The notes beneath the pieces are model-generated. The model saw nothing but the letters and a program-made list of their open reading frames with translations, ran no database searches and was not told where the DNA came from. Of a stretch of 37,247 nucleotides of DNA, positions 3,549 to 37,189 are shown piece by piece (position 1 is the first letter of the stretch; every line of letters starts with the position of its first letter). The stretch covers positions 1 through 37,247 of IMG/VR virus record IMGVR_UViG_3300037489_000065, one strand, 5' to 3'. The stretch comes from a virus. Position numbers and translations under genes: made by a program.

Positions 3549-3769
3549 TGAGTAAAGTAACTACAACCATGGCTTTTTGGCCTGAATTAGAAAAATTACT
3601 TGACTTACCAGATGAGGTATATGAACTAACCTTGCATTGTAAAGTCGATGAACTCGTTACTTTGGAATTAAAAACATATGTAAAACCTATTCAAATTAAA
3701 GAGGGTGATATAGTAAGAGAAATAAAAAAATATTATCTTACTGAGATCGAAGACGATGCCACTACCTAA
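3548..3769 (+). CDS. Hypothetical small protein after portal
   Basis: 73 aa, not recognised. It has a beta-rich pattern (VYELTLHCKVDELVTLELKTYV) ending in an acidic tail. It starts on the portal stop (TAATG) with a GGAGGTGATA ribosome-binding site at the end of the portal gene, and its last 14 bases overlap the next small gene. Translational coupling in the head operon suggests a virion or assembly role, but nothing in the sequence gives a biochemical function. Confidence 0.7.
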   Translation: MSKVTTTMAFWPELEKLLDLPDEVYELTLHCKVDELVTLELKTYVKPIQIKEGDIVREIKKYYLTEIEDDATT

Positions 3770-8823: not shown

Positions 8824-9216
8824 ATGGCTACACATATCGGAAACGCTGGATCGGTCGAAATAGGTGCCAACACCGTGGCCGAAATGATTAGTTGGTCATT
8901 AACCGAAAACGCCACCACGATGGATGATACCGTCGCGGGGGATGCCTCACAATCACATAAAACCGGTACATTATCATGGTCAGGATCGATTAATTGTTAT
9001 TGGGATGAAACCGATACCAATGGTCAAGAGGCTATGACCGTCGGGGCATCAGTTGCACTTCATCTATTACCGGATGGCGCGGTTGCTGATGATATTGATT
9101 TCAATGGCACCGCGACGATCGAGAGCATTGAACGTGCCCAGGCTAATGACGCCATCGTTACTGCCAATTTCACATTCAAGGGTAATGGTGACTTGACCAG
9201 GACCGTATTAACTTAA
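8824..9216 (+). CDS. Major tail tube protein, copy 1
   Basis: 130 aa, beta-rich, with VAEMISWSLTENA, LSWSGSINCYWDETD and ATIESIERAQANDAIVTANFTFKG. The pattern of alternating strands and the place between tail terminator and assembly chaperone indicate the tail tube subunit. It is about 80 percent identical to the next gene; differences cluster near residues 5-16, 31-66 and 79-90, while the last 38 residues are almost identical. It starts after a TAATTAA stop region with weak Shine-Dalgarno, or by coupling. Both copies may build a mixed tube, or one may be specialised. Confidence 0.85.
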   Translation: MATHIGNAGSVEIGANTVAEMISWSLTENATTMDDTVAGDASQSHKTGTLSWSGSINCYWDETDTNGQEAMTVGASVALHLLPDGAVADDIDFNGTATIESIERAQANDAIVTANFTFKGNGDLTRTVLT

Positions 9217-9225
9217 GGGGGCAAC

Positions 9226-9615
9226 ATGGCCACACATACAGGAAACGGCGGATTGGTAAAGATAGCCACCGCCACCGTAGCGGAAATGATTAGCTGGTCA
9301 TTAACCGAAAACGCAGTCACCGCCGATGATACTGTCTCGGGTGATTCTTCACAATCTCATTTGACCGGTACCAAATCATGGTCTGGATCGGTTAATTGCT
9401 TTTGGGACGAAACCGACGCAACAGGTCAGGAAGCTATGACTGTGGGTGCATCGGTGGATCTTAGCTTACATCCTGATGGTGCGAGTGGTGGTGATATCGA
9501 TTTCAATGGTACTGCAACAATTGAAAGTATCGAACGTGCCCAGGCTAATGATGCCATTGTGACTGCTAATTTTACATTCAAGGGCAGTGGTGACTTAACC
9601 AGGACTGTATTGTAA
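9226..9615 (+). CDS. Major tail tube protein, copy 2
   Basis: 129 aa, a tandem paralogue of the gene at 8824 and separated from it by nine bases that include AGGGGG. It keeps the same core (VAEMISWSLTENA, WSGSVNCFWDETD, IESIERAQANDAIVTANF). Changes such as Glu-to-Lys at residue 12, a Lys/Leu swap near residues 46-50, Tyr-to-Phe at 59 and a Gly-rich loop at 88-90 suggest surface divergence rather than decay. Both reading frames are intact. Its stop overlaps the chaperone start (TAATG). Confidence 0.85.
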   Translation: MATHTGNGGLVKIATATVAEMISWSLTENAVTADDTVSGDSSQSHLTGTKSWSGSVNCFWDETDATGQEAMTVGASVDLSLHPDGASGGDIDFNGTATIESIERAQANDAIVTANFTFKGSGDLTRTVL

Positions 9616-17141: not shown

Positions 17142-17423
17142 TTAATTTTTTAAATCAGCCAATGTTTCATGTACTCTATGCAAACAGACAGTAGCGGCTT
17201 CCTCTGGTGTGTCGTGAGTGAAATCTGATTTAATGTCGAAGGATGCACCTTTAGAAGTTACATACATGTCTACGGAAGCGTGCCAGCCTCCACTTAATAA
17301 TCCGACTCTCGGTTTCCCGTAATCCTGCAGGGCGCGTATTAGTTCGCCGAGGGATTGCCCAGGCATTACAGATTTTATTGATGGTAAACCCATGTTAAAG
17401 CTCTTCGTTTGTTTATCATTCAT
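17142..17423 (-). CDS. Hypothetical protein downstream of polymerase
   Basis: 93 aa, not recognised. There is a helix-strand pattern: MPGQSLGELIRALQDYGKPR, then a strand-rich middle (GGWHASVDMYV, GASFDIKSD) and a terminal helix with HRVHETLADL. It overlaps the polymerase end by four bases (ATGA), so it is likely co-translated with it. The composition fits a small soluble alpha-beta protein. Neighbours suggest a DNA-metabolism accessory role, but no motif confirms it. Confidence 0.7.
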   Translation of the reverse strand: MNDKQTKSFNMGLPSIKSVMPGQSLGELIRALQDYGKPRVGLLSGGWHASVDMYVTSKGASFDIKSDFTHDTPEEAATVCLHRVHETLADLKN

Positions 17424-19417
17424 CGCAACGGCTCCACAAGTTTTTTAACTTGATTAATATAATAATCAAAATTGATATTGTTGCGGTCGGCATCGTTGAT
17501 ATTGTTACAAGGTGCAACCACCCAACCGACATGATAATTTGTTCGACGTTCTACATATTTAGATTTATTTTTTGTATTGATTCGTTCGTCCCATGGTAAA
17601 TTTAATACATCCGTTATATCACCTATCAATTTTAAATCAGTAAGTACCGAATTATAATACGCATCGGTTAAACCATTCGCACGTTTCCATTGTCCAACCT
17701 GACACCCTTTTGTTGGTGGGCTTATCTTAGTTAATGTATCACCATTTACAGCGACATAGTATCGAGTGATGCGCTGCAGTTCGAGAGTTTTATCAAGGAT
17801 CAATTGATCTGATCGACCGACTTTGGTACGCAACATGAAATCATGGATATCATTGTGATTATAAATAAAATCAGCGATATCTTGACCATGTACCAGTGCA
17901 GCCTCGGCCGCTTTAGGTATCACCAATGCGGAATGGTTTTGGTGCCATTCAAGGTTATATTCATATGCACCCTTGCGTTTGATCTTGCCTGATTCATATT
18001 CAGCAATATAGTTGTTTACATCACGGATAAACATTCGAGAATATTCAGCGTATTCTAATTCAAGTTTGGTAAAATCTTGCCACCAATAACATAGGCTGTA
18101 ATATCTACCTAATTGACCACGGGGGCATTTGACCGTTAAACCATCCGTATTAATTTGAACCATTTCAAGACCGGGAATATACATTATCAAATATTCAGCC
18201 AATAGACATAATAATAATTGACCATTGATCGTAATTTTCATCGTATATAGCGGATCATAAAACGGGCTGTATTTACTGTTACTATCACCATACACACCAT
18301 TAAGCGCAAGTTTTAACATGGCATTTTCTGGCGTTCCCTTTGCATACTGGCGGCGCTGTTCAAATACATCCTTATAAATATCACAAAATTGCTCGCTTAA
18401 ATGTTCAGGGTATAATCGATTCGCTATCGCCAGATTTGGATAATAACTCGCGACGTCGGCATCAATGATCACAAAATCATCATCACTATATATCGTTTGT
18501 GATTCAATCGATCCATGGATACCACCCAGGCCGAATACAAAATCAAAACCATTCACCGTGGCTTTAAGATCATTAAATATTCCTTTGGTTTCGGTGATCA
18601 CTTGTGACGATAACCATTGTTTGATACGTTGAAACTCAGGTTGTTTAAATTGTATATAGGGGAGTATTGCATCGGCTAATCGGATCGATGGTCGAATTGT
18701 TTGCCGTGGTGTACGTTTATTATCAATATACATATAACATGAGCCAGGTATCTCTTGCTCAAGTTTCATAATAAAATAATCTTTGCCGATTTTAGTATCA
18801 TTATGATTCAGAAAATTACGACCATATTTCTCGCTCAATTGTTCGCGGAATTCGATCATTGGTATTGATTCAAAATAAAACTTTTCGGTTTCATCCACAT
18901 CATGGTTGTTGTATTCGATCAATACATCCTTTTGTGGATCGGTTAGCGGCGTACCCGGTGCATAGGGTAGATCCTTGATGTTGTCTGATCGCATATTGAA
19001 TTCGAGCATTTTTAATGATGTGCGGCGCGATTCATTATCGAAATGATGTATCTTATATAAATCAATTTGTGGGATGTGGATGTCTTGATCCCATATCACA
19101 TTATCGAATCGATGTTCCCATGGTGTGGCAATAATATCAGCCGCCTTATTGTAAATATCTGATACGGTCGGATTAAGATGATAGTTTTCAATGATGAAAT
19201 GAATGATTGGATAATCGAATCCGATGTTATTAAACCCCACCATACGGCACCGTGTGCCCTTGAGAGCCGTTAAAAAATCAATCAGGGTATAGATGTCATT
19301 GTGTCGGTCGGATATCTCAAATAACATCCGGGTACCCGTGGCGGGATGTTTGAATGCCGCCGTAAATACATTCGGATAGGTTTCAAGGTCATAAATCCAA
19401 TCGAGGGAGTTAGTCAT
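17420..19417 (-). CDS. Family B DNA polymerase
   Basis: 665 aa. Replicative polymerase with proofreading. Exonuclease motifs: DLE in Exo I (Asp10, Glu12), GFNNIGFDYP in Exo II (Asp68), YNNHD in Exo III (Tyr169, Asp173). Polymerase motifs: A is DADVASYYP (Asp319/Asp321), B is KLALNGVYG (Lys369, Tyr376, Gly377), C is INTDG (Asp425) instead of the common YGDTDS. All catalytic acids are present. The size is short for PolB and there is no obvious terminal-protein gene, so this belongs to the compact phage PolB type used with a separate primase (26571) and SSB (19770). Its start overlaps the upstream small gene by ATGA. Confidence 0.92.
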   Translation of the reverse strand: MTNSLDWIYDLETYPNVFTAAFKHPATGTRMLFEISDRHNDIYTLIDFLTALKGTRCRMVGFNNIGFDYPIIHFIIENYHLNPTVSDIYNKAADIIATPWEHRFDNVIWDQDIHIPQIDLYKIHHFDNESRRTSLKMLEFNMRSDNIKDLPYAPGTPLTDPQKDVLIEYNNHDVDETEKFYFESIPMIEFREQLSEKYGRNFLNHNDTKIGKDYFIMKLEQEIPGSCYMYIDNKRTPRQTIRPSIRLADAILPYIQFKQPEFQRIKQWLSSQVITETKGIFNDLKATVNGFDFVFGLGGIHGSIESQTIYSDDDFVIIDADVASYYPNLAIANRLYPEHLSEQFCDIYKDVFEQRRQYAKGTPENAMLKLALNGVYGDSNSKYSPFYDPLYTMKITINGQLLLCLLAEYLIMYIPGLEMVQINTDGLTVKCPRGQLGRYYSLCYWWQDFTKLELEYAEYSRMFIRDVNNYIAEYESGKIKRKGAYEYNLEWHQNHSALVIPKAAEAALVHGQDIADFIYNHNDIHDFMLRTKVGRSDQLILDKTLELQRITRYYVAVNGDTLTKISPPTKGCQVGQWKRANGLTDAYYNSVLTDLKLIGDITDVLNLPWDERINTKNKSKYVERRTNYHVGWVVAPCNNINDADRNNINFDYYINQVKKLVEPLR

Positions 19418-23284: not shown

Positions 23285-24912
23285 GACCTTATCAAAACGA
23301 AGCGAAACAAGCGATATACGATGCCTGGGGTGCAGGCGCTTCTAATGTCCTATCGGTATTGCCCACGGGTGGTGGCAAGACCGTGATTTTCTCGGATATA
23401 TTGAGGGAACATGCCGCTCCTAGTGTGGCAATTGCCCATCGTCAGGAATTAGTCACACAAGTATCATTAGCACTGGCAAAGGATGAAGTGAAACACCGCA
23501 TCATCGGACCAAAGTCAGTCATTAAATTAGCTGTAAGTCTCCATATGGAACATATCGGGCGATCTTATTTTGATCCATCGGCGGTATGTGCAGCGGCCGG
23601 GGTGGATACGCTGATCAGACGGCACAGTGAGCTGGCCCCCTGGTTGCGATCTGTAACATTATGGGTGCAAGATGAAGCGCATCACGTTTTAGAGGCCAAC
23701 AAGTGGGGTAAGGCGGCCGCTATGTTCCCCAATGCCAAAGGGCTCGGGGTGACTGCCACGCCGGTTAGGGCCGACGGTAAAGGCTTGGGACGGTATTCCG
23801 ACGGGTTGTTTGACACTATGATCGAAGGTCCAAGTATGCGCGATTTGATCAACATGGGGTATTTGACCGACTATCGAATATTTGCGCCGCCGTCGGATAT
23901 TGATATTAGTCAAGTACCGATCGGCGCGAGTGGTGATTATAACCCGGTCAAGTTAAAAAGCGCCGTCCGTAAATCACATGTAATCGGTGATGTGGTCAAG
24001 CATTACCTACGAATTGCATCGGGTAAACTGGGTATCACCTTTGCCACGGATGTCGAAACGGCCACAGATATCGCCGCGCAATTTAACGCTGCAGGTGTGT
24101 CGGCCGCCATGGTATGTGCCAAAACACCCGATGCGGAACGGGTGGCCATTTTACGGCGGTTTCGTAAACGTGAGTTATTACAATTAGTTAATGTCGATCT
24201 ATTTGGTGAGGGTTTTGACTTGCCCGCGATTGAAGTGGTAAGCATGGCCAGGCCCACACAATCCTATGCCTTATATGCCCAGCAATTCGGGCGGGCGCTT
24301 CGATTGCTTGATGGTAAAACCGAGGCCATTATTATCGATCATGTGGGTAATGTGGAGCGTCACGGCTTACCCGATGTGCGACGTAGTTGGACCTTGGACC
24401 GTCGAGAGAAACGCAGCAAAGACACGTCCGATGATGTGATACCGGTCAAGGCTTGCCCATCATGCACCGCTGTATATGAGCGGATCTATTCAGTTTGCCC
24501 TTACTGTGGATATAAATCCATTTCGGCCGGTCGGTCTGGTCCTGAATTTGTCGATGGTGATTTGTGTGAATTGGACCCTATGACATTAGCTATGATGCGC
24601 GGTGAGATTGAACGGGTAGATATGAGCATCCAGGATGCGCGTGTCGAAATGGAAGGCAAGTACATACCTGAGATTGGCATCCATGCGGGAATGAAACGCC
24701 ACAGGTTACGCCAGGAAGCACAAGAGGCGCTTAGGGCATCGATTGCATGGTGGGCGGGTTGGCAACGCGCACAGGGGCGACCAGATAGTGAGAGTTACCG
24801 ACGGTTTTACTTTGCATTTGGTACAGATGTAATGACCGCTCAAGCATTAAATACCCGCGAGGCGTACGACTTAGCGGATCGAATTAATCAACAATTGGGG
24901 AGTATGGCATGA
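23275..24912 (+). CDS. SF2 DEAH-box helicase with zinc ribbon
   Basis: 545 aa. ATP-dependent DNA helicase or translocase. Motifs: LRPYQNEA (Q-like), PTGGGKT (Walker A, near residue 30), DEAH (Walker B), TATPVRADG (motif III), GFDLPAIE (motif V region) and QQFGRALR (motif VI). A four-Cys zinc ribbon follows (CPSC and CPYC, residues about 396-418). The C-terminal domain of about 125 residues (ASIAWWAGWQRAQGRPDSES) is of the kind seen in phage helicases of this group. It probably serves replication or recombination. The start is inside the methyltransferase end. Confidence 0.92.
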   Translation: MQLRPYQNEAKQAIYDAWGAGASNVLSVLPTGGGKTVIFSDILREHAAPSVAIAHRQELVTQVSLALAKDEVKHRIIGPKSVIKLAVSLHMEHIGRSYFDPSAVCAAAGVDTLIRRHSELAPWLRSVTLWVQDEAHHVLEANKWGKAAAMFPNAKGLGVTATPVRADGKGLGRYSDGLFDTMIEGPSMRDLINMGYLTDYRIFAPPSDIDISQVPIGASGDYNPVKLKSAVRKSHVIGDVVKHYLRIASGKLGITFATDVETATDIAAQFNAAGVSAAMVCAKTPDAERVAILRRFRKRELLQLVNVDLFGEGFDLPAIEVVSMARPTQSYALYAQQFGRALRLLDGKTEAIIIDHVGNVERHGLPDVRRSWTLDRREKRSKDTSDDVIPVKACPSCTAVYERIYSVCPYCGYKSISAGRSGPEFVDGDLCELDPMTLAMMRGEIERVDMSIQDARVEMEGKYIPEIGIHAGMKRHRLRQEAQEALRASIAWWAGWQRAQGRPDSESYRRFYFAFGTDVMTAQALNTREAYDLADRINQQLGSMA

Positions 24913-24942
24913 AAAATCAAGCTGAAATATTTCAAGCGTTAT
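24909..24942 (+). repeat. 34-bp direct repeat, copy 1
   Basis: Identical to 25081-25114. It covers the start codon and codons 1-11 of two adjacent genes. It marks a local gene duplication that keeps [11 protein letters not shown] unchanged at the DNA level while the rest has diverged. Confidence 0.9.
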
Positions 24943-25097
24943 TGGATGGTAAAAAGATTCATCACCATACATGGGTCGAGAGTGGTGGATATGTTCACAT
25001 GGTTGATGGTGATGTGTATACCGCTGTGGGCAATCCATATATCGGTGGTTTTGCAATAGTAAAAAATTGGAGCGTGTACGATGAAAAATCAAGCTGA
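24909..25097 (+). CDS. Small protein, first of a duplicated pair
   Basis: 62 aa. N-terminal [17 protein letters not shown], then a beta pattern around GGYVHMVDGDVY and ending [12 protein letters not shown]. The first 34 bases are identical to the start of the next gene, and both share the plan helix - DGKKI - strands - NWxxYxE/QWEIYQE. It is coupled to the helicase gene (ATGA). The pattern recalls small phage proteins such as DUF2829-like proteins (some of which are anti-defence sponges), but the similarity is weak and no function is claimed. Its end overlaps the start of the next gene by 17 bases. Confidence 0.75.
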   Translation: MKNQAEIFQALLDGKKIHHHTWVESGGYVHMVDGDVYTAVGNPYIGGFAIVKNWSVYDEKSS

Positions 25098-25114
25098 AAT
25101 ATTTCAAGCGTTAT
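25081..25114 (+). repeat. 34-bp direct repeat, copy 2
   Basis: Identical to 24909-24942, 172 bases downstream. See the first copy. Confidence 0.9.
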
Positions 25115-25461
25115 CGAATGATGAGAAAATTCGATTTATTGGGTGGGATGGTGATTTATATTATTATTTGGTTAATGGTCAATTATGTAATCAAGATAAT
25201 ATCAAACGTTTATGCACATTTAATATACCGGAACAATGGGAAATTTACCAGGAATCAAAGTGGTACGATAATATCCCTGAAGGTGGGGTGTTGTGTTGGG
25301 TTGGCGAAGGGCGTTATTTACGAATAATCACGCGTGTTTTAACCAATACTATAAACGATTATTTTTACAGGGATGATGGTGATGTGGGATGGAATAGTGC
25401 CGAACCACTAACTTGTCAGGAAGTGAATAAAATATATCGTAATACATTGGCTGCATTATGA
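25081..25461 (+). CDS. Small protein, second of a duplicated pair, with extra C-terminal domain
   Basis: 126 aa. Residues 1-56 parallel the previous gene (same first eleven residues, later QWEIYQE in place of NWSVYDE). Residues 58-126 form an added domain, [18 protein letters not shown], then [17 protein letters not shown], a beta-rich segment commonly seen in phage accessory proteins. Start ATG is inside the upstream gene. The stop overlaps the VRR-NUC start as ATGA. Function unknown. Confidence 0.78.
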
Positions 25462-25889
25462 ATCTTAATCAGTGGGCAATTGAATGGAAAATACCCTTTC
25501 CGGCGATGGAGGATTTGCGGCGCCAATTGGGTATCGTTTCGACTGATCCAAAACCGATCGATGGTGCGAGCGAGGCGGCGGTGCAAACTCGGGTACGCCT
25601 TGAGGCATCGCAGCGTGGTGGTCGGTTATGGCGGAATAATGTCGGTGTGCTGCAAGATGATCGCGGCGTACCGGTTCGTTTTGGTTTGGCCAATGACTCG
25701 AAACAGATGAATAAGATAATTAAATCATCAGATCTTATCGGCATATCATCCACGGGTCAGTTTGTCGCTCGGGAGATAAAGCCCGAAGGATGGGTGTATA
25801 CCGGTACACCACGGGAACAGGCACAATTAAAATTTATAGAACTGATCACATCATTGGGTGGTGATGCTTCATTCACTACGTCATGTTGA
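25458..25889 (+). CDS. VRR-NUC domain nuclease
   Basis: 143 aa. Stand-alone phage VRR-NUC (PD-(D/E)XK) nuclease of the kind thought to cut branched DNA. Features in order: [20 protein letters not shown] with the N-terminal Glu, WRNNVG, SDLIGI (Asp at about residue 97), [10 protein letters not shown] giving the E-x-K pair, and [18 protein letters not shown]. Residues 1-45 precede the domain. It is coupled to the upstream gene by ATGA. Its TGA stop lies within the -35 box of the following promoter. Confidence 0.9.
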
Positions 25890-25914
25890 CATATTCGACA
25901 CTATGGCGTAATGT
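25886..25914 (+). promoter_or_regulatory. Promoter of the structured RNA candidate
   Basis: TTGACA (25886-25891), exact 17-base spacer, TAATGT (25909-25914). Predicted start is near 25921, one or two bases before the long closing stem begins at 25923. Confidence 0.65.
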
Positions 25915-25920
25915 TAGAAG

Positions 25921-26057
25921 ATTATGGTGGTGTTGGTGCAGGACGCAAGCATGGTTCGAGTCCATGGGAAGGTCGGGGATGTCCCGCATCATCCAAGAGA
26001 TGATATAAAAGTCGGTGTGTAGTGGTTCGAGTCCACTTGCCAACATCACTATATTTT
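25921..26057 (+). ncRNA. Structured RNA with two tRNA T-arm-like hairpins
   Basis: A 185-base gap between genes holds a fold closed by a 16-bp helix without mismatches (25923-25938 with 26038-26053, four G-U pairs), followed by TTTT. Inside are CATGG-TTCGAGT-CCATG (25950-25966) and AGTGG-TTCGAGT-CCACT (26021-26037), both with canonical T-loops. There is also ATCATC-CAAGA-GATGAT (25988-26004) and a small C-GGG hairpin (25974-25986). The 3' part matches a tRNA: T-arm followed directly by seven acceptor bases pairing with 25932-25938, then A73 and TCA. The 5' part is far too long for a D-arm, so it is not a normal tRNA. A 30-codon ORF at 25911-26003 is a competing reading. Confidence 0.55.
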
Positions 26058-26073
26058 ATAATGAGGGTAACAA

Positions 26074-26574
26074 ATGAATCGTGAACATGTAAAAAGAATA
26101 GCGTTAAAAATGGTTCAGGATATCGGGCTGATAAATTTATCTCGTAAGTCATTATGTGAGTCTGCAGGAATTGCCGATGGATCATTCCCGCATGTGATGG
26201 GGTGTAACTTTACGGAATTTATCGAAGAAATTAAACCCGAGGCGGAAAATGTATTGATCTATCAGGTTGGCAAAACTCGTACCGCCCCTGGATTACGCAA
26301 GGAACAGATTTTAAATGTGGCGATTGATCTCGCCCGTAATGATGGATATCATAATTTAACCCGTGATGGTATTGCCGAACAGGCGGGTGTATCGATGGGC
26401 CTAGTTACCCGCTATTTTGAAACAATGGCACAATTGAAACGTGCTGTCATGCAAGCGGCGATCCATCGAGAGATACCCGAGATTATCGCGCAAGGGTTGG
26501 TCATTGGTGATAAACAAGCCCGAAAAGCACCGGAGAAGTTAAAAGCGGCCGCCGCTGATATATTGATGAAATGA
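26074..26574 (+). CDS. Regulator with two TetR-type HTH domains in tandem
   Basis: 166 aa. Residues about 3-52 (REHVKRIALKMVQDIGLINL, then LCESAGIADGSFPHV) and residues about 75-128 (RKEQILNVAIDLARNDGYHN, then IAEQAGVSMGLVTRYF) each match the DNA-binding N-terminus of TetR proteins: an initial helix, then IA-x-x-AGVS and a Y/F-rich end. There is no ligand domain; a basic Lys/Ala-rich tail follows. GAGGGTAAC precedes the ATG. It overlaps the primase gene (ATGA). It probably binds an operator, and the four ATTGAC-N6-GTCAAT sites are candidate targets, which is inference only. Confidence 0.8.
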   Translation: MNREHVKRIALKMVQDIGLINLSRKSLCESAGIADGSFPHVMGCNFTEFIEEIKPEAENVLIYQVGKTRTAPGLRKEQILNVAIDLARNDGYHNLTRDGIAEQAGVSMGLVTRYFETMAQLKRAVMQAAIHREIPEIIAQGLVIGDKQARKAPEKLKAAAADILMK

Positions 26575-28904
26575 AGTCGCTACCGGATGCACTCGCCCCG
26601 CTGGCGGAATATAACCAGTTTATTGTCCGTAAGGATAAATTACCCGCAGATTATCGCACCGGTCGGGTAGGTGATGCCCACAATTCCGATCTATGGTGTG
26701 ATGCTCAAACCGCTATCGATACCGCTACAGCATATGGTTCTGATTACGGCGTCGGATTCGTATTTACCGAATCGGATCCTTTCTTTTTTGTCGATATCGA
26801 TAAGTGTCTGCAGAATGATAATACCTGGTCAGATAATGCCATAAAAATTATGTCGATGTTAAATGGTGCCGCCGTGGAAGTATCACAGTCAGGACGTGGA
26901 TTGCACATCATCGGCAAAGGTCAGGCGCCCGATCATGCGTGTAAGAATGTACCGCTTGGCATGGAGCTATATACGGCCGGCCGATATGTGGCCTTAACTG
27001 GCACCAATGCGATTGGATCGGCCGACATGAATTGTGGTCCGGTATTACCTGGATTGGTATCAACTTACTTCCCACCCAAGGTGGCAGCGGTTGAACAGGA
27101 ATGGACCATTGAACCAATAATGGAATGGTCAGGTCCGTTGGATGATAGCAAATTGATTGCCAAGGCACTCAAGGCCAAAAGTGCGGCGGCTGCATTTGGT
27201 GCCAGTGCATCATTTAGGGATCTATGGATTGCCGACGCCGATGTGTTGGCCGGGATATGGCCGGGTGAGGATCGACCCTATGATGAGTCAAGTGCCGATG
27301 CCGCCCTCGCGCAGCACCTTGCGTTTTGGACGGGTAACGATTGCGGACGTATCGAACGGTTGATGCGTCAATCGGGCCTGGTACGGGACAAATGGGACAA
27401 GCACAAGTCATATTTAACCATGACCATTACCCGTGCCATATCGCTACAGGGCACCCGTGTTTACTGTGATGGTCGGGTGCCGACTGAACCCTCTAATGCG
27501 ATCGATGTACCTATATTATTAACAGGTTTTCAATATTTAGCGGCACAGCAACAAATGGAATATTTCAAAGGTTGCGTATATATCCAGGATATGCACCGGA
27601 TTTTTATCCCGAATGGATCATTACTCAAATCGGAACAATTTAATGCCACCTATGGTGGATATGTATTTCAATTAGAAAGCGAAAAAAGCGGTAAAGTTAC
27701 ACGCAAGGCGTGGGAAGCATTCACCGAGTCTCAGGTAGTTAGATATCCCAAAGCCGAATCGATGTGTTTTAGACCCGATCTTGAATCTGGTTCATTAATT
27801 ACTTTCCATGGCAGGACATTCGTCAACACTTATGTTCCAATAGTGACGGCCCGTGCGTCCGGTGATATAACACCCTTCCTCTCTCATGTTGCAAAGGTGT
27901 TGCCGGACGTTCGGGACCAATCCATTCTATTGGCCTATATGGCGGCCTGTATCCAATATAAAGGCGTTAAATTCCAGTGGGCACCCTTGCTGCAGGGTGT
28001 CGAGGGTAACGGCAAGACGCTATTCACACAATGTGTGGTTGAGGCGATTGGCGAGCGGTACTCACACATGCCACCGGCCAATGAGATAGCCGAGAAATTT
28101 AACGAATGGTTATTTAATAAGTTATTTATCGGTGTTGAGGATGTATACGTTCCTGATCATAAAAAAGAAGTGATCGAGATACTTAAACCGATGATTACCA
28201 ATAGCCGTCTAGCTATGCGGGCAATGCAACAAAGCCAGGTCATGGGCGATAATGTTGCTAATTTTATGTTGAACAGCAACCATAAAGATGCCATCCGTAA
28301 AACCCGCACCGATCGCCGATTCTGTGTATTTTATACCGCGCAACAGGTTGATGGTGATCTGAAACGCGACGGTATGGATGGTGATTACTTCCCCAAGCTT
28401 TATAAATGGTTACGTAAAGATGGTTACGCCAGGGTGGCACAATACCTTGAGACTTATTCCATTCCTAATGAATTGAACCCAGCCGGTGCATGCCATAGAG
28501 CTCCAACCACTAGTAGCACACAGGAAGCCTTGGCGATGTCATTGGGTGCCGTGGAACAGGAGATAATGGAAGCGATCGACGAGGGGCGCCCAGGCTTTGC
28601 CGGTGGCTGGGTATCGTCTATGGCATTGGAGCGATTACTCAAGGCGACGCGGATGGATCGATTAATTCCCCATAATAAGCGTCGGGAAGTATTACAGGCG
28701 CTTGGTTACGATTGGCACCCGGCGCTCCATAATGGCCGGGTCAATACCGCTATTTTATGGGATGGTGGTAAAACTCGACTATTCATCAAGAAAGATCATC
28801 TCTATTGTAATCTGACATCCCCTAGCGAAGTATCCCGTATATATCAGGATTGCCAAGGTATAAACAATCTTACCAAAATGAGACTTGACACTGGTGCCCC
28901 ATAA
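26571..28904 (+). CDS. Primase-helicase (PrimPol plus SF3/D5-like)
   Basis: 777 aa. The N-terminal prim-pol domain (residues about 10-165) shows the metal motif FFFVDIDKC, then VEVSQSGRGLHIIGKG (the sGxGxH motif) and ELYTAGRYVALTG. The C-terminal helicase domain (residues about 440-640) has Walker A EGNGKTLF, an FNEWLFNKLFIGVEDV Walker B region, NFMLNSNHKDAI (motif C, Asn sensor) and RTDRRF (Arg finger region). The middle segment links the two. It would prime and unwind for PolB. The downstream gene overlaps its stop or starts 11 bases later. This is the core of the early replication block. Confidence 0.9.
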   Translation: MKSLPDALAPLAEYNQFIVRKDKLPADYRTGRVGDAHNSDLWCDAQTAIDTATAYGSDYGVGFVFTESDPFFFVDIDKCLQNDNTWSDNAIKIMSMLNGAAVEVSQSGRGLHIIGKGQAPDHACKNVPLGMELYTAGRYVALTGTNAIGSADMNCGPVLPGLVSTYFPPKVAAVEQEWTIEPIMEWSGPLDDSKLIAKALKAKSAAAAFGASASFRDLWIADADVLAGIWPGEDRPYDESSADAALAQHLAFWTGNDCGRIERLMRQSGLVRDKWDKHKSYLTMTITRAISLQGTRVYCDGRVPTEPSNAIDVPILLTGFQYLAAQQQMEYFKGCVYIQDMHRIFIPNGSLLKSEQFNATYGGYVFQLESEKSGKVTRKAWEAFTESQVVRYPKAESMCFRPDLESGSLITFHGRTFVNTYVPIVTARASGDITPFLSHVAKVLPDVRDQSILLAYMAACIQYKGVKFQWAPLLQGVEGNGKTLFTQCVVEAIGERYSHMPPANEIAEKFNEWLFNKLFIGVEDVYVPDHKKEVIEILKPMITNSRLAMRAMQQSQVMGDNVANFMLNSNHKDAIRKTRTDRRFCVFYTAQQVDGDLKRDGMDGDYFPKLYKWLRKDGYARVAQYLETYSIPNELNPAGACHRAPTTSSTQEALAMSLGAVEQEIMEAIDEGRPGFAGGWVSSMALERLLKATRMDRLIPHNKRREVLQALGYDWHPALHNGRVNTAILWDGGKTRLFIKKDHLYCNLTSPSEVSRIYQDCQGINNLTKMRLDTGAP

Positions 28905-34650: not shown

Positions 34651-35978
34651 TGGCGGTTATTTATTGTGACAGTAACGCATCCGGTGGTGATGATGGCACA
34701 GACTGGACAAATGCTTATGAAGACCTTCCGGCAGCTTTAACCGCATGGAATCCTGGAGACGTTATATGGCTGGCTCATAATAGCGCAGAGACTTCCGGTT
34801 CTGGTAAAACACTAGGCGCTACCAATGCCACTCGTGCTGTTCATTGTCCTGTATATAGGGTTAACTCTGGAACTGATGTTTATGACAATTCGGATGCTAC
34901 TGTAAATTATGCCGTTACTGGTGGTGCCGCCGATATTACAATTACTACTTTTATTGCTTTTCATGGGGTCAGGTTTAGTGGTGGTGATAATATTATTCCT
35001 GGGAATGGCGCAGATTCAGTTAAATTTATAGACTGTCACCTTACGTTAACGGGAGCATCTTCAATACTTCAGCATGGCTCCGCGAGTGCTGATAATTTCG
35101 CTTATTATAATAATTGCGTTATCAATTTTTCTAGTGGAAGTGGTGGGTGGATATTAAATACTAATAATAGTATTACTTTTGATAATTGTGAATTCCAAGG
35201 AAATGCAATCACTAATGGCCTTTTGAGAATAACTAGCGCAAGACATTCGACTTATGCATTTAATGCTTGTGATTTTTCAGCATTAACAAATGATACTTTG
35301 GTGGATATTTCGCCCGCCAATGATACGCAATTGCGAGTTGATTTTAATGCGTGTTCTTTGCCTTCAGGTGTATCTATAACGGATGGGGGTTTTCAAGGTG
35401 AGGGTCAGATAGTTGTTGTCAGCGGTTGTGATCAACCAGGATCAGGAAACGCAAAACGCTACAGAAACGAAGTTCACACGTTTAGAGGTGTAACCAGTTA
35501 TAATATAACAAGTTACCATAATAATGGTTTGGTTGATGAGGATGGATCTACTAGACTCTCATATGAAATGAACCCGAATTCTAATACAACAATACAAACC
35601 CCTTTAGAAGGGATTCCATTATATGTTTATGTAGATTCTATAGGGTCAACTATTTTCACCGTTGAGGTTGTTGAAAACTTTACAAGTGCATTAACGGATA
35701 CAGAGGCATGGATGGATATTTATGTTTATGACACTGCTGATGACGCAAAATGGGAAAAATACTCCACCAGAAATACAGATATTTCCAGCGCAGGAAGTTC
35801 TCTTGCTGCTGGTACTGGGTTGGCTAATTGGACAGGGGAACCCGGCAGTTCAAGATCAGCCAAGTTTGAAAAAACAATCACAATAAATGAAGTCGGTTAT
35901 GTAAAAGCAATCGTATATTTAGGTATAGAAGAGGCTGGACAAGTTCTACATTATGATGACAGCATAACGGTGTCATAA
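34650..35978 (+). CDS. Beta-helix structural protein (spike or fibre-like)
   Basis: 442 aa from GTG 34650, which overlaps the previous stop; a TTG at 34641 is less likely. The N-terminal part (VIYCDSNASGGDDGTDWTNA followed by AYEDLPAAL and DVIWLA) and repeated short strands with FIDCHL, YYNNCVI, FDNCEFQ and FNACDF rungs match a right-handed beta-helix of the pectate-lyase-like class. Residues about 320-442 form a beta-sandwich end domain. Such proteins are tailspikes, or decorations that bind or cut glycans. No catalytic site is identified. Confidence 0.78.
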   Translation: MAVIYCDSNASGGDDGTDWTNAYEDLPAALTAWNPGDVIWLAHNSAETSGSGKTLGATNATRAVHCPVYRVNSGTDVYDNSDATVNYAVTGGAADITITTFIAFHGVRFSGGDNIIPGNGADSVKFIDCHLTLTGASSILQHGSASADNFAYYNNCVINFSSGSGGWILNTNNSITFDNCEFQGNAITNGLLRITSARHSTYAFNACDFSALTNDTLVDISPANDTQLRVDFNACSLPSGVSITDGGFQGEGQIVVVSGCDQPGSGNAKRYRNEVHTFRGVTSYNITSYHNNGLVDEDGSTRLSYEMNPNSNTTIQTPLEGIPLYVYVDSIGSTIFTVEVVENFTSALTDTEAWMDIYVYDTADDAKWEKYSTRNTDISSAGSSLAAGTGLANWTGEPGSSRSAKFEKTITINEVGYVKAIVYLGIEEAGQVLHYDDSITVS

Positions 35979-37189
35979 TGGCCAGAAAAGGCACAGCTCC
36001 AGGCTTGGGTGTAATAACAGAAACCCAAAGCCAGAAAGGGACTGCGCCAGGATGGGGGATTTTACAAGAAACTGCTGTTGCCGCAGGAGAGGGGGCCACA
36101 TTAACAGGTAACTCTGGGGCAGGCGCAGAAGGAGATATTTCTGCCTCAATAAGTGTTGCAATAACAGGTAATCAAGGCACAGGTAATGAAGGAACATTAA
36201 TTCCTGGTGTTAGCGTCAATATACCCATTACTGGTAACGAAGGAACAGGAACGGAAGGTTCTTTTGCTACTGCAATAGCAGTCCCGTTGACAGGAGAAGA
36301 AGGTACAGGAGCAGAAGGAAGTTTAACTTCATCTATTAGCGTTCCCCTTACCGGCGAAGAGGGTGTCGGTGCGGAAGGCTCTTTCGCCACTGCAATATCT
36401 GTATCGTTAACTGGCGAGGAAGGCATAGGGTCAGAGGGCTCCCTATCTCCTGCAATATCAGTTTCGTTAACCGGGGAAGAGGCTACTGGCGCTGTTGGCA
36501 CCTTGGTTCCAAGTGCAGGGGTTTTCGTAGCTCTCACTGGTGAAGAGGGTACAGGGGCCGAGGGAAGTCTCTCACTTGCCATATCTGTGCCTTTAACTGG
36601 TGAAGAGGCCGCTGGTGCAGAAGGCACACTCACTCCCTCGGTGGGAGCAACAGAAGTTCCCATAACAGGTGTTGAAGGTACCGGAGCGGAAGGCTCTCTA
36701 TCCACTGCTATATCTGTATCTCTAACTGGGGAAGAAGCCACAGGAGCGGAAGGGGATTTCTCGCTTGCAGTATCTGTAAATCTTACTGGCGAAGAAGGAA
36801 CTGGTGCCGAGGGAACCATAACCCCTTCGGTAGGGGCACAAGTCGCTTTAACTGGTGAGGAAGGTATCGGTGTCGAGGGCTCTCTATCCCTTGCAATATC
36901 TGTATCTCTAACTGGTGAGGAAGGTACCGGAGCCATTGGAACAATCGTTCCGGAGGTGGGAATACAAGTCGCTTTAACTGGTGAGGAAGGTACCGGTGCT
37001 GTTGGTTCTGTATCACCTTCAATAACTGTCTCACTTACTGGTGTTGAAGGGGTTGGTGCCATCGGTACGGTTGGTCCACCAGGTTTAGAGCCAACCGTAC
37101 CAGGTCTGGAATATACGTTATCTGGAAATCGGCTACACTATACGGTACCAGATGATCGATTACATTGGACATTGGAGGAAGAGGACTGA
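35978..37189 (+). CDS. Repeat-rich surface protein with 16 LTGEEGTGAEGS-type repeats
   Basis: 403 aa. Residues about 40-360 consist of some 15 full repeats and one partial repeat of 20-23 residues of the form LTGEEGTGAEGSLxxAISVS, each strand-turn-strand, low in aromatic residues and Cys. This suggests a long thin beta-solenoid or stacked fibre. The C-terminal EYTLSGNRLHYTVPDDRLHW segment recurs at the ends of phage head-fibre or fibre-anchor proteins. The start overlaps the upstream stop (TAATG). The stop lies in the terminal repeat (equal to 67-69). Confidence 0.8.
   Translation: MARKGTAPGLGVITETQSQKGTAPGWGILQETAVAAGEGATLTGNSGAGAEGDISASISVAITGNQGTGNEGTLIPGVSVNIPITGNEGTGTEGSFATAIAVPLTGEEGTGAEGSLTSSISVPLTGEEGVGAEGSFATAISVSLTGEEGIGSEGSLSPAISVSLTGEEATGAVGTLVPSAGVFVALTGEEGTGAEGSLSLAISVPLTGEEAAGAEGTLTPSVGATEVPITGVEGTGAEGSLSTAISVSLTGEEATGAEGDFSLAVSVNLTGEEGTGAEGTITPSVGAQVALTGEEGIGVEGSLSLAISVSLTGEEGTGAIGTIVPEVGIQVALTGEEGTGAVGSVSPSITVSLTGVEGVGAIGTVGPPGLEPTVPGLEYTLSGNRLHYTVPDDRLHWTLEEED

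Follow-up and report, generated by a model that had tools for sequence, protein, structure and literature searches.

What kind of RNA is encoded between two protein genes of a tailed phage, where two hairpins carrying tRNA-type T-loops are enclosed by one long helix? The window, the whole stretch of DNA analysed here, is an IMG/VR virus record of 37,247 bases from a tailed phage. Among annotated phages, its primase is closest to those of Shewanella phage SppYZU01 and the Klebsiella phage JD001-like phages. A preliminary description had proposed that the RNA is structured and mimics the 3′ half of a tRNA, a view upheld here by the sequence and by covariation within a family of homologues. The window RNA is a member of a conserved phage RNA family and not an isolated case or a product of chance.

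The Operon Promoter and Leader

A conserved 143-aa gene (25458-25889; without a Pfam match) and a TetR_N-domain gene (26074..26574, plus strand; Pfam TetR_N, E 1e-9) are separated by a 184-nt gap, which holds most of a promoter and the RNA that we named the double T-arm (dT) RNA. Synteny marks the dT RNA as the 5′ leader of the TetR-like gene, whose operon also contains a primase/helicase-like gene (26571..28904, plus strand; Pfam NrS-1 HBD and DUF5906). Two overlapping ORFs in the neighborhood (24909-25097 and 25081-25461) share their first 11 residues and represent a tandem duplication. Elsewhere in the window lie two adjacent, very similar paralogues of ~130 aa (8824-9216 and 9226-9615), a protein made of LTGEEGTGAEGS-type repeats (35978-37189), and, on the minus strand, a 665-aa protein that looks DNA polymerase-like by eye (17420-19417; no Pfam match at E 1e-3).

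The promoter (25886..25914, plus strand) consists of TTGACA (25886-25891), a 17-nt spacer, and TAATGT (25909-25914), with a predicted start at about 25921. This element, recorded in the preliminary description, is indeed present, but its TAATGT box matches the -10 consensus at only three of six positions, and the output of a generic promoter scan did not contain it. Its assignment as a promoter rests on its alignment with a TTGAC-17-TAnnnT element that precedes the same TetR-like gene in ~25 relatives. In these relatives the site is strongly conserved (TTGAC...TTAGTAT, often with GTCA within the spacer), and an operator for autoregulation may lie inside it.

The TTTT that had been noted after the closing helix also exists, but it is not a terminator-like site, and the attenuator/terminator reading was dropped. 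The dT RNA therefore reads as the leader of the downstream operon and not as a separate terminated transcript. Its transcription probably starts at the operon promoter, which would make it the opening segment of the regulator/primase mRNA.

Anatomy of the dT RNA

The RNA is closed by a 16-bp helix with four G-U pairs and no mismatch, formed by a 5′ strand at 25923..25938 and the 3′ strand TGCCAACATCACTATA at 26038..26053 (both plus strand), exactly as first described. It is the sole mismatch-free helix of at least 16 bp (span at most 150) in the window, and a helix of this length arose in one of 300 shuffles of the region. The fold energy of the RNA corresponds to z = -2.9. The inner 7 bp of the helix (5′ strand 25931-25937, plus strand) are the equivalent of a tRNA acceptor, and T-arm 2 is followed by TGCCAAC A TCA.

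An 11-nt linker precedes T-arm 1. Within it, folding places a mini D-arm-like element, GC-AGGAC-GC (25938..25946, plus strand), with GG in the loop; its pairing is weak (2 bp only), and all aligned family members have GG in this linker. T-arm 1, CATGG TTCGAGT CCATG (25950..25966, plus strand), and T-arm 2, AGTGG TTCGAGT CCACT (26021..26037, plus strand), carry the same loop on different 5-bp stems, confirming the two T-arm hairpins reported earlier. T-arm 2 occupies the normal tRNA T-arm position, and T-arm 1 sits roughly at the place of the tRNA anticodon arm. A second mini-hairpin, GTCG-GGGA-TGTC (25972..25983, plus strand), has GG in its loop and one T-T mismatch. It is followed by an extra hairpin, ATCATC-CAAGA-GATGAT (25988..26004, plus strand), which is specific to the window phage and replaces a short GGG/CCC hairpin of other family members.

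The dT RNAs are ~90-135 nt long. From 5′ to 3′ they comprise the acceptor-like helix, the 11-nt GG linker (a reduced D-arm), T-arm 1, GGAAGG, the mini-hairpin with its GG loop, a small hairpin, T-arm 2, and the acceptor strand; the corresponding span of a tRNA contains the D, anticodon, variable, and T elements. This arrangement would make two D/T-like contacts within the RNA possible.

Identification of the Family

We searched for two GGTTCGANTCC motifs with a spacing mostly too short for tandem tRNAs, and at least 120 viral stretches matched. Approximately half of the T-arm doublets found with this pattern involve ordinary tRNAs and were left out. Among 103 distinct doublets outside ARAGORN tRNAs, 43 had a helix (score at least 15) that abuts T-arm 2 and encloses both arms, whereas 7.7 were expected by chance from mispaired controls, in which the 5′ and 3′ flanks came from different loci. 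This set provides largely independent support for the dT family.

The family was defined from loci L193-L400. The window and loci L254, L193, and L336 share the core GGTTCGAGTCC-nnn-GGAAGGTCnnGGATGnC; in the window it reads GGTTCGAGTCC-nnn-GGAAGGTCGnGGATGTC (25953..25983, plus strand), with 27 of its 31 nt matching L254. A second IMG/VR motif scan used this core only, leaving the acceptor and T-arm 2 free. It returned 47 phage contigs, giving 27 distinct sequences with the window, compared with approximately one match expected by chance on our rough estimate. The acceptor helix and T-arm 2 occur throughout these matches, although both were free in the pattern. As the dT family requires, the window carries the core GGTTCGANTCC-nnn-GGAAGG-nnnn-GGATG and has an acceptor-like helix around two T-arms. 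The 31-nt core is conserved between the 37-kb window phage and phages of 100-430 kb.

Other searches delimited the distribution of the family. No exact match was found to 20-23-nt stretches of either T-arm region. BLASTN against annotated phages yielded generic T-arm matches only, and no match with four remote members; hence no isolate with a known host is available for the dT RNA. A loop-free core pattern detected no member in 85,000 prokaryote genomes, where only three unrelated chance matches appeared, and this absence fits a role in phage-host conflict.

Covariation and the Covariance Model

In an alignment of 18 sequences, 97.2% of the cells of the proposed structure were paired, compared with 35-55% in slid controls. 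Both sides had changed in 15 of 24 pairs, and none of 500 shuffles reached any of the covariation measures. Acceptor pairs were found in A-U, G-C, U-A, C-G, and G-U versions, and the stem of T-arm 1 also showed both-side changes. Covariation supports the acceptor-like helix as well as the two T-arms, and the check that had been suggested for the closing helix comes out in its favor. Mini-hairpin 2, helix 3 of the alignment, is the weakest of the helices (89% of cells paired). Since the family was collected with TTCGANTCC fixed in arm 1, the constancy of this loop carries no weight as separate evidence.

The covariance model R2, built without the window sequence and including the remote member L198, matched the window at 25928..26049 (plus strand) with 62.3 bits (E 3e-16). 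T4 tRNAs scored 17-18 bits with the family model. Weaker matches in phage arrays were tRNAs and other tRNA-like RNAs, mostly below 36 bits and reaching 43 bits at most; the remote members L198, L176, L259, L312, L322, and L248 had scored 35-49 bits with the first model.

A 30-codon ORF (25911-26003) overlaps the RNA, and its conservation at the protein level had been named as the competing possibility. The homologues differ by 1 nt in the length of linker 1 and show compensatory base-pair changes, and a small-protein gene was rejected on these indels and changes.

The Leader Site in Relatives

The relative loci were collected with the primase and the regulator as queries; a genome scan with the TetR-like regulator gave no match. 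Their gene order is a homologue of the 143-aa gene, often a 71-aa ORF, the TTGAC-17-TAnnnT promoter, the TetR-like gene, and the primase. In most of them the -10 box and the start codon lie 21-41 nt apart; in four, namely the window, L050, L029, and L003, the spacing is ~98-160 nt. The tRNA-like RNA in the L050 leader has two T-loop motifs, its acceptor and D-arm are perfect, and its excess of 44 nt is readable by ARAGORN only as an intron. In L029, the leader has a 9-bp acceptor, a perfect T-arm, and two extra hairpins, and ARAGORN makes no default tRNA call. L003 bears a leader hairpin, GGTGGT...ACCACC, without a T-arm at the same site (3571-3727). L027 and L031 have no insert, although their flanks are close to those of L029 and they come from the same metagenome.

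Tested with the family model, L050 (18.6 bits) and L029 (no match) failed as dT members; their leaders are other tRNA-like RNAs at the dT RNA site. The varied inserts and their absence among relatives imply that this leader repeatedly gains or loses tRNA-like RNAs. Separately, the DEAH box of a helicase ORF in L050 (163-2913) is interrupted by an intein-like insertion of ~300 aa (VQDEC-FPAGTLV...VVHN-CHH).

dT RNAs in tRNA Arrays

Each of 30 contigs searched in full had one high-scoring dT copy. The homologues of larger phages mostly lie inside tRNA arrays, and the tRNA genes of dT loci, where present, all share the strand of the dT RNA. The same arrays encode other RNAs that share the dT acceptor (AGTCAGG) and T-arm, with cores differing in length and sequence. 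A single pass of one detector, on which this class rests, collected 72 distinct variable-core RNAs of 68-180 nt, dT members included. Their identity is 87% over the last 24 nt, 62% over the first 24 nt, and ~29%, or near random, in the cores. A full 5-bp anticodon-like stem occurs in two of the 72, compared with 100 of 100 canonical tRNAs, the latter by definition; the AGTCAGG acceptor is found in only one of 100 canonical tRNAs of these loci. By the same detector, the 6.2-kb locus L445 (G031:C1:1-6200) has 12 non-canonical RNAs and one canonical tRNA. Such AGTCAGG/variable-core arrays were seen in L445, L363, L375, L359, and L364, and their RNAs are possibly a diversified tRNA-chassis RNA class. 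In another group of loci (L208, L210, L217, L221, and L229), a shared short motif, AGGnTACnTnCAGCAA, followed by a T-arm, lies directly after tRNA genes and is missed by ARAGORN; it had no non-tRNA Rfam match in the four loci scanned (all but L217).

From these arrays we draw a broader proposal, which we hold tentatively and give somewhat less than an even chance: tailed phages may carry a class of non-decoding tRNA-chassis RNAs with constant acceptor/T-arm ends, tRNA-like processing, and exchangeable cores directed at host factors. The dT RNA would be one conserved member, sited in tRNA arrays or an operon leader, and T4 rnaC an old member. Phage tRNA arrays are commonly explained by codon supply or by defence against tRNA cleavage. 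The covariation-supported dT family suggests that some of their "tRNA genes" cannot decode, and annotation tools miss dT RNAs or label them proline or histidine tRNAs.

Proposed Function

T-arms and elbows are recognition features for RNase P, RNase Z, and the CCA-adding and T-arm-modifying enzymes. The dT RNA should consequently engage these enzymes or a tRNA-sensing host defence enzyme. What is best conserved between the window and other phages is the module of T-arm 1, GGAAGG, and the mini-hairpin; the acceptor, second hairpin, and T-arm 2 stem vary in sequence, with the acceptor and T-arm 2 still paired. This pattern of conservation suggests that the work is done by the module, with the top half serving as a chassis. 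We infer that the dT RNA is non-decoding and is more likely to engage a host tRNA-binding factor than to act as a tRNA.

Our working proposal, to which we give a little less than an even chance, is that the dT RNA acts in trans as a mimic or decoy of the tRNA top half, the step from mimicry to titration being drawn from the anatomy. It would be transcribed from the operon promoter and fold co-transcriptionally into a form that cannot decode, and its paired ends and tRNA-like top half would confer stability. The acceptor/T-arm 2 part might recruit or resist tRNA-processing enzymes, while the conserved module would occupy, early in infection, a host factor that recognizes the T-arm or elbow. Candidate factors include a tRNA-acting defence enzyme, RNase P, and the T-arm-modifying enzymes. 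Cis protection or regulation of the operon mRNA may coexist with this trans role. An antisense function was rejected: the longest complementary match of the dT RNA to its own genome is 11 nt, the same as in shuffles, which argues against a self-targeting guide. The variable-core RNAs of contig G031 likewise showed no antisense excess, apart from one duplicated copy.

RNase P is hindered when a 5′ leader pairs with the 3′ trailer. Such pairing exists in the window, and a mature free RNA may therefore not form, which makes a cis role possible; the single copy and leader position are also compatible with mRNA stabilization. The tRNA-like fold could cap the 5′ end of the TetR/primase mRNA, blocking 5′-end-dependent decay or placing the operon under the control of a tRNA-binding protein, much as tRNA mimics regulate in some bacterial leaders. 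In line with this, the dT RNA begins a few nucleotides from the predicted transcript start, its 16-bp helix runs end to end with no terminator, and L050, L029, and L003 also have a structured insert at the exact site where most leaders span 21-41 nt. The homologues of larger phages, however, mostly reside in tRNA arrays instead, and the close relatives L027 and L031 lack an insert, so that the operon does not need one; we regard a purely cis-acting leader as unlikely, though worth keeping in mind. A device that binds tRNAs as a sponge or RNase P competitor, with its two T-loops interdigitated to receive the elbow, appears improbable. Two T-loops in one small RNA would suit it, and such a module is a known tRNA-elbow receptor (PMC4810234), but both loops are of the tRNA type TTCGANT, each with a GG-bearing partner loop, and two ordinary D/T contacts fit better.

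The remaining readings take the RNA for a tRNA or what is left of one. The suggestion of an atypical tRNA with an insertion has become less likely, as two T-arms without a canonical anticodon arm are the normal anatomy of the family. As a divergent tRNA, arm 1 would be an anticodon arm UU-CGA-GU (anticodon CGA, serine), flanked by a shortened D-arm and a very large variable region. U33 is present, the Rfam tRNA model equates arm 1 of L395 with the anticodon arm at 24 bits, short of the 29-bit cut-off, and ARAGORN calls some members tRNA-Pro or tRNA-His, among them the dT RNAs of L345, L358, and L372. These calls, however, rest on a different anticodon stem that is mismatched; N73 is A where serine would need G, position 37 is a pyrimidine in L372, L198, L176, and L248, the 11-nt linker before arm 1 leaves no room for a D-arm, and sibling array RNAs have no anticodon arm. 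Judged on sequences that were collected with TTCGANTCC fixed in arm 1, this identity seems improbable. Phage tRNA genes often degenerate, and the two identical T-loops suggest a duplication; with a patchy presence at the leader site (three of ~30 relatives), these points had made it worth weighing whether the RNA is a functionless relic left by the decay of tRNA genes that had fused or duplicated. Against it stand the perfect helices, compensatory changes in three helices over 18 sequences, and a 31-nt core kept between the 37-kb phage and the 100-430-kb phages. A family conserved by compensatory changes is hard to reconcile with decay, and we find the relic very improbable.

Comparison with Known RNAs

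The checks suggested for known RNA classes identified neither a tRNA nor a tmRNA in the window (ARAGORN), nor any Rfam match. With introns allowed, the sole ARAGORN call was a poor tRNA-Ala containing a 31-nt intron, and no Rfam family covers the dT RNA. Two dT members checked with the Rfam tRNA model scored 21 and 24 bits (cut-off 29), and the remote member L198 scored 31. The dT RNA resembles tRNA (RF00005) in its acceptor-like helix, its T-arm, and, in larger phages, its position next to tRNA genes; it differs in its truncated D-arm, second T-arm, and lack of a canonical anticodon arm. Membership among tRNAs was rejected, since neither ARAGORN nor Rfam found a cloverleaf with a D-arm and a 5-bp/7-nt anticodon arm at position 27, and tmRNA was dismissed because ARAGORN, which also seeks tmRNA, reports none. 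We found no account of phage RNAs with two T-arms in full-text searches of open-access papers, and provisionally regard the dT family as new.

YrlA, a bacterial Y RNA bound by Ro/TROVE, combines a long end-to-end stem with a tRNA-like module, as does the dT RNA. A Y RNA identity was rejected: Rfam gave no match, the window phage has no Ro gene, and Ro was absent in 13 of 15 contigs tested. Ro/TROVE genes do occur in G026 and G036, the contigs of L394 and L248, both with a dT RNA, and Ro could be supplied by the host.

The interdigitated T-loop modules of RNase P, the L1 stalk, and the T-box, which receive the tRNA elbow, likewise have two T-loops in one RNA (PMC4810234). They are pentaloop pairs, whereas the dT RNA has 7-nt tRNA-type T-loops on separate 5-bp stems. 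In mascRNA and viral tRNA-like structures, mimicry of the tRNA top half recruits processing enzymes (PMC4810234). The dT RNA shares this mimicry, but those RNAs are eukaryotic, form the 3′ ends of long RNAs, and have no second T-arm.

Phage T4 encodes two small stable RNAs of unknown role in its tRNA cluster, species 1 (rnaC) and species 2 (rnaD) (PMC3014915, PMC9697503). We observed a canonical T-arm, CCGGG-TTCGAAT-CCCGG, at the 3′ end of rnaC, with a 10-bp hairpin ahead of it. Unlike the dT RNA with its two T-arms, rnaC has one T-arm and a poor acceptor helix; it was rejected as a dT member because the family model gave it 19.8 bits, a score on a par with ordinary T4 tRNAs. The T4 species 1 RNA is the nearest known counterpart of the dT RNA, alike in kind without belonging to the family. 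The dT family offers a handle on a decades-old question, the role of the stable non-tRNA RNAs in phage tRNA clusters.
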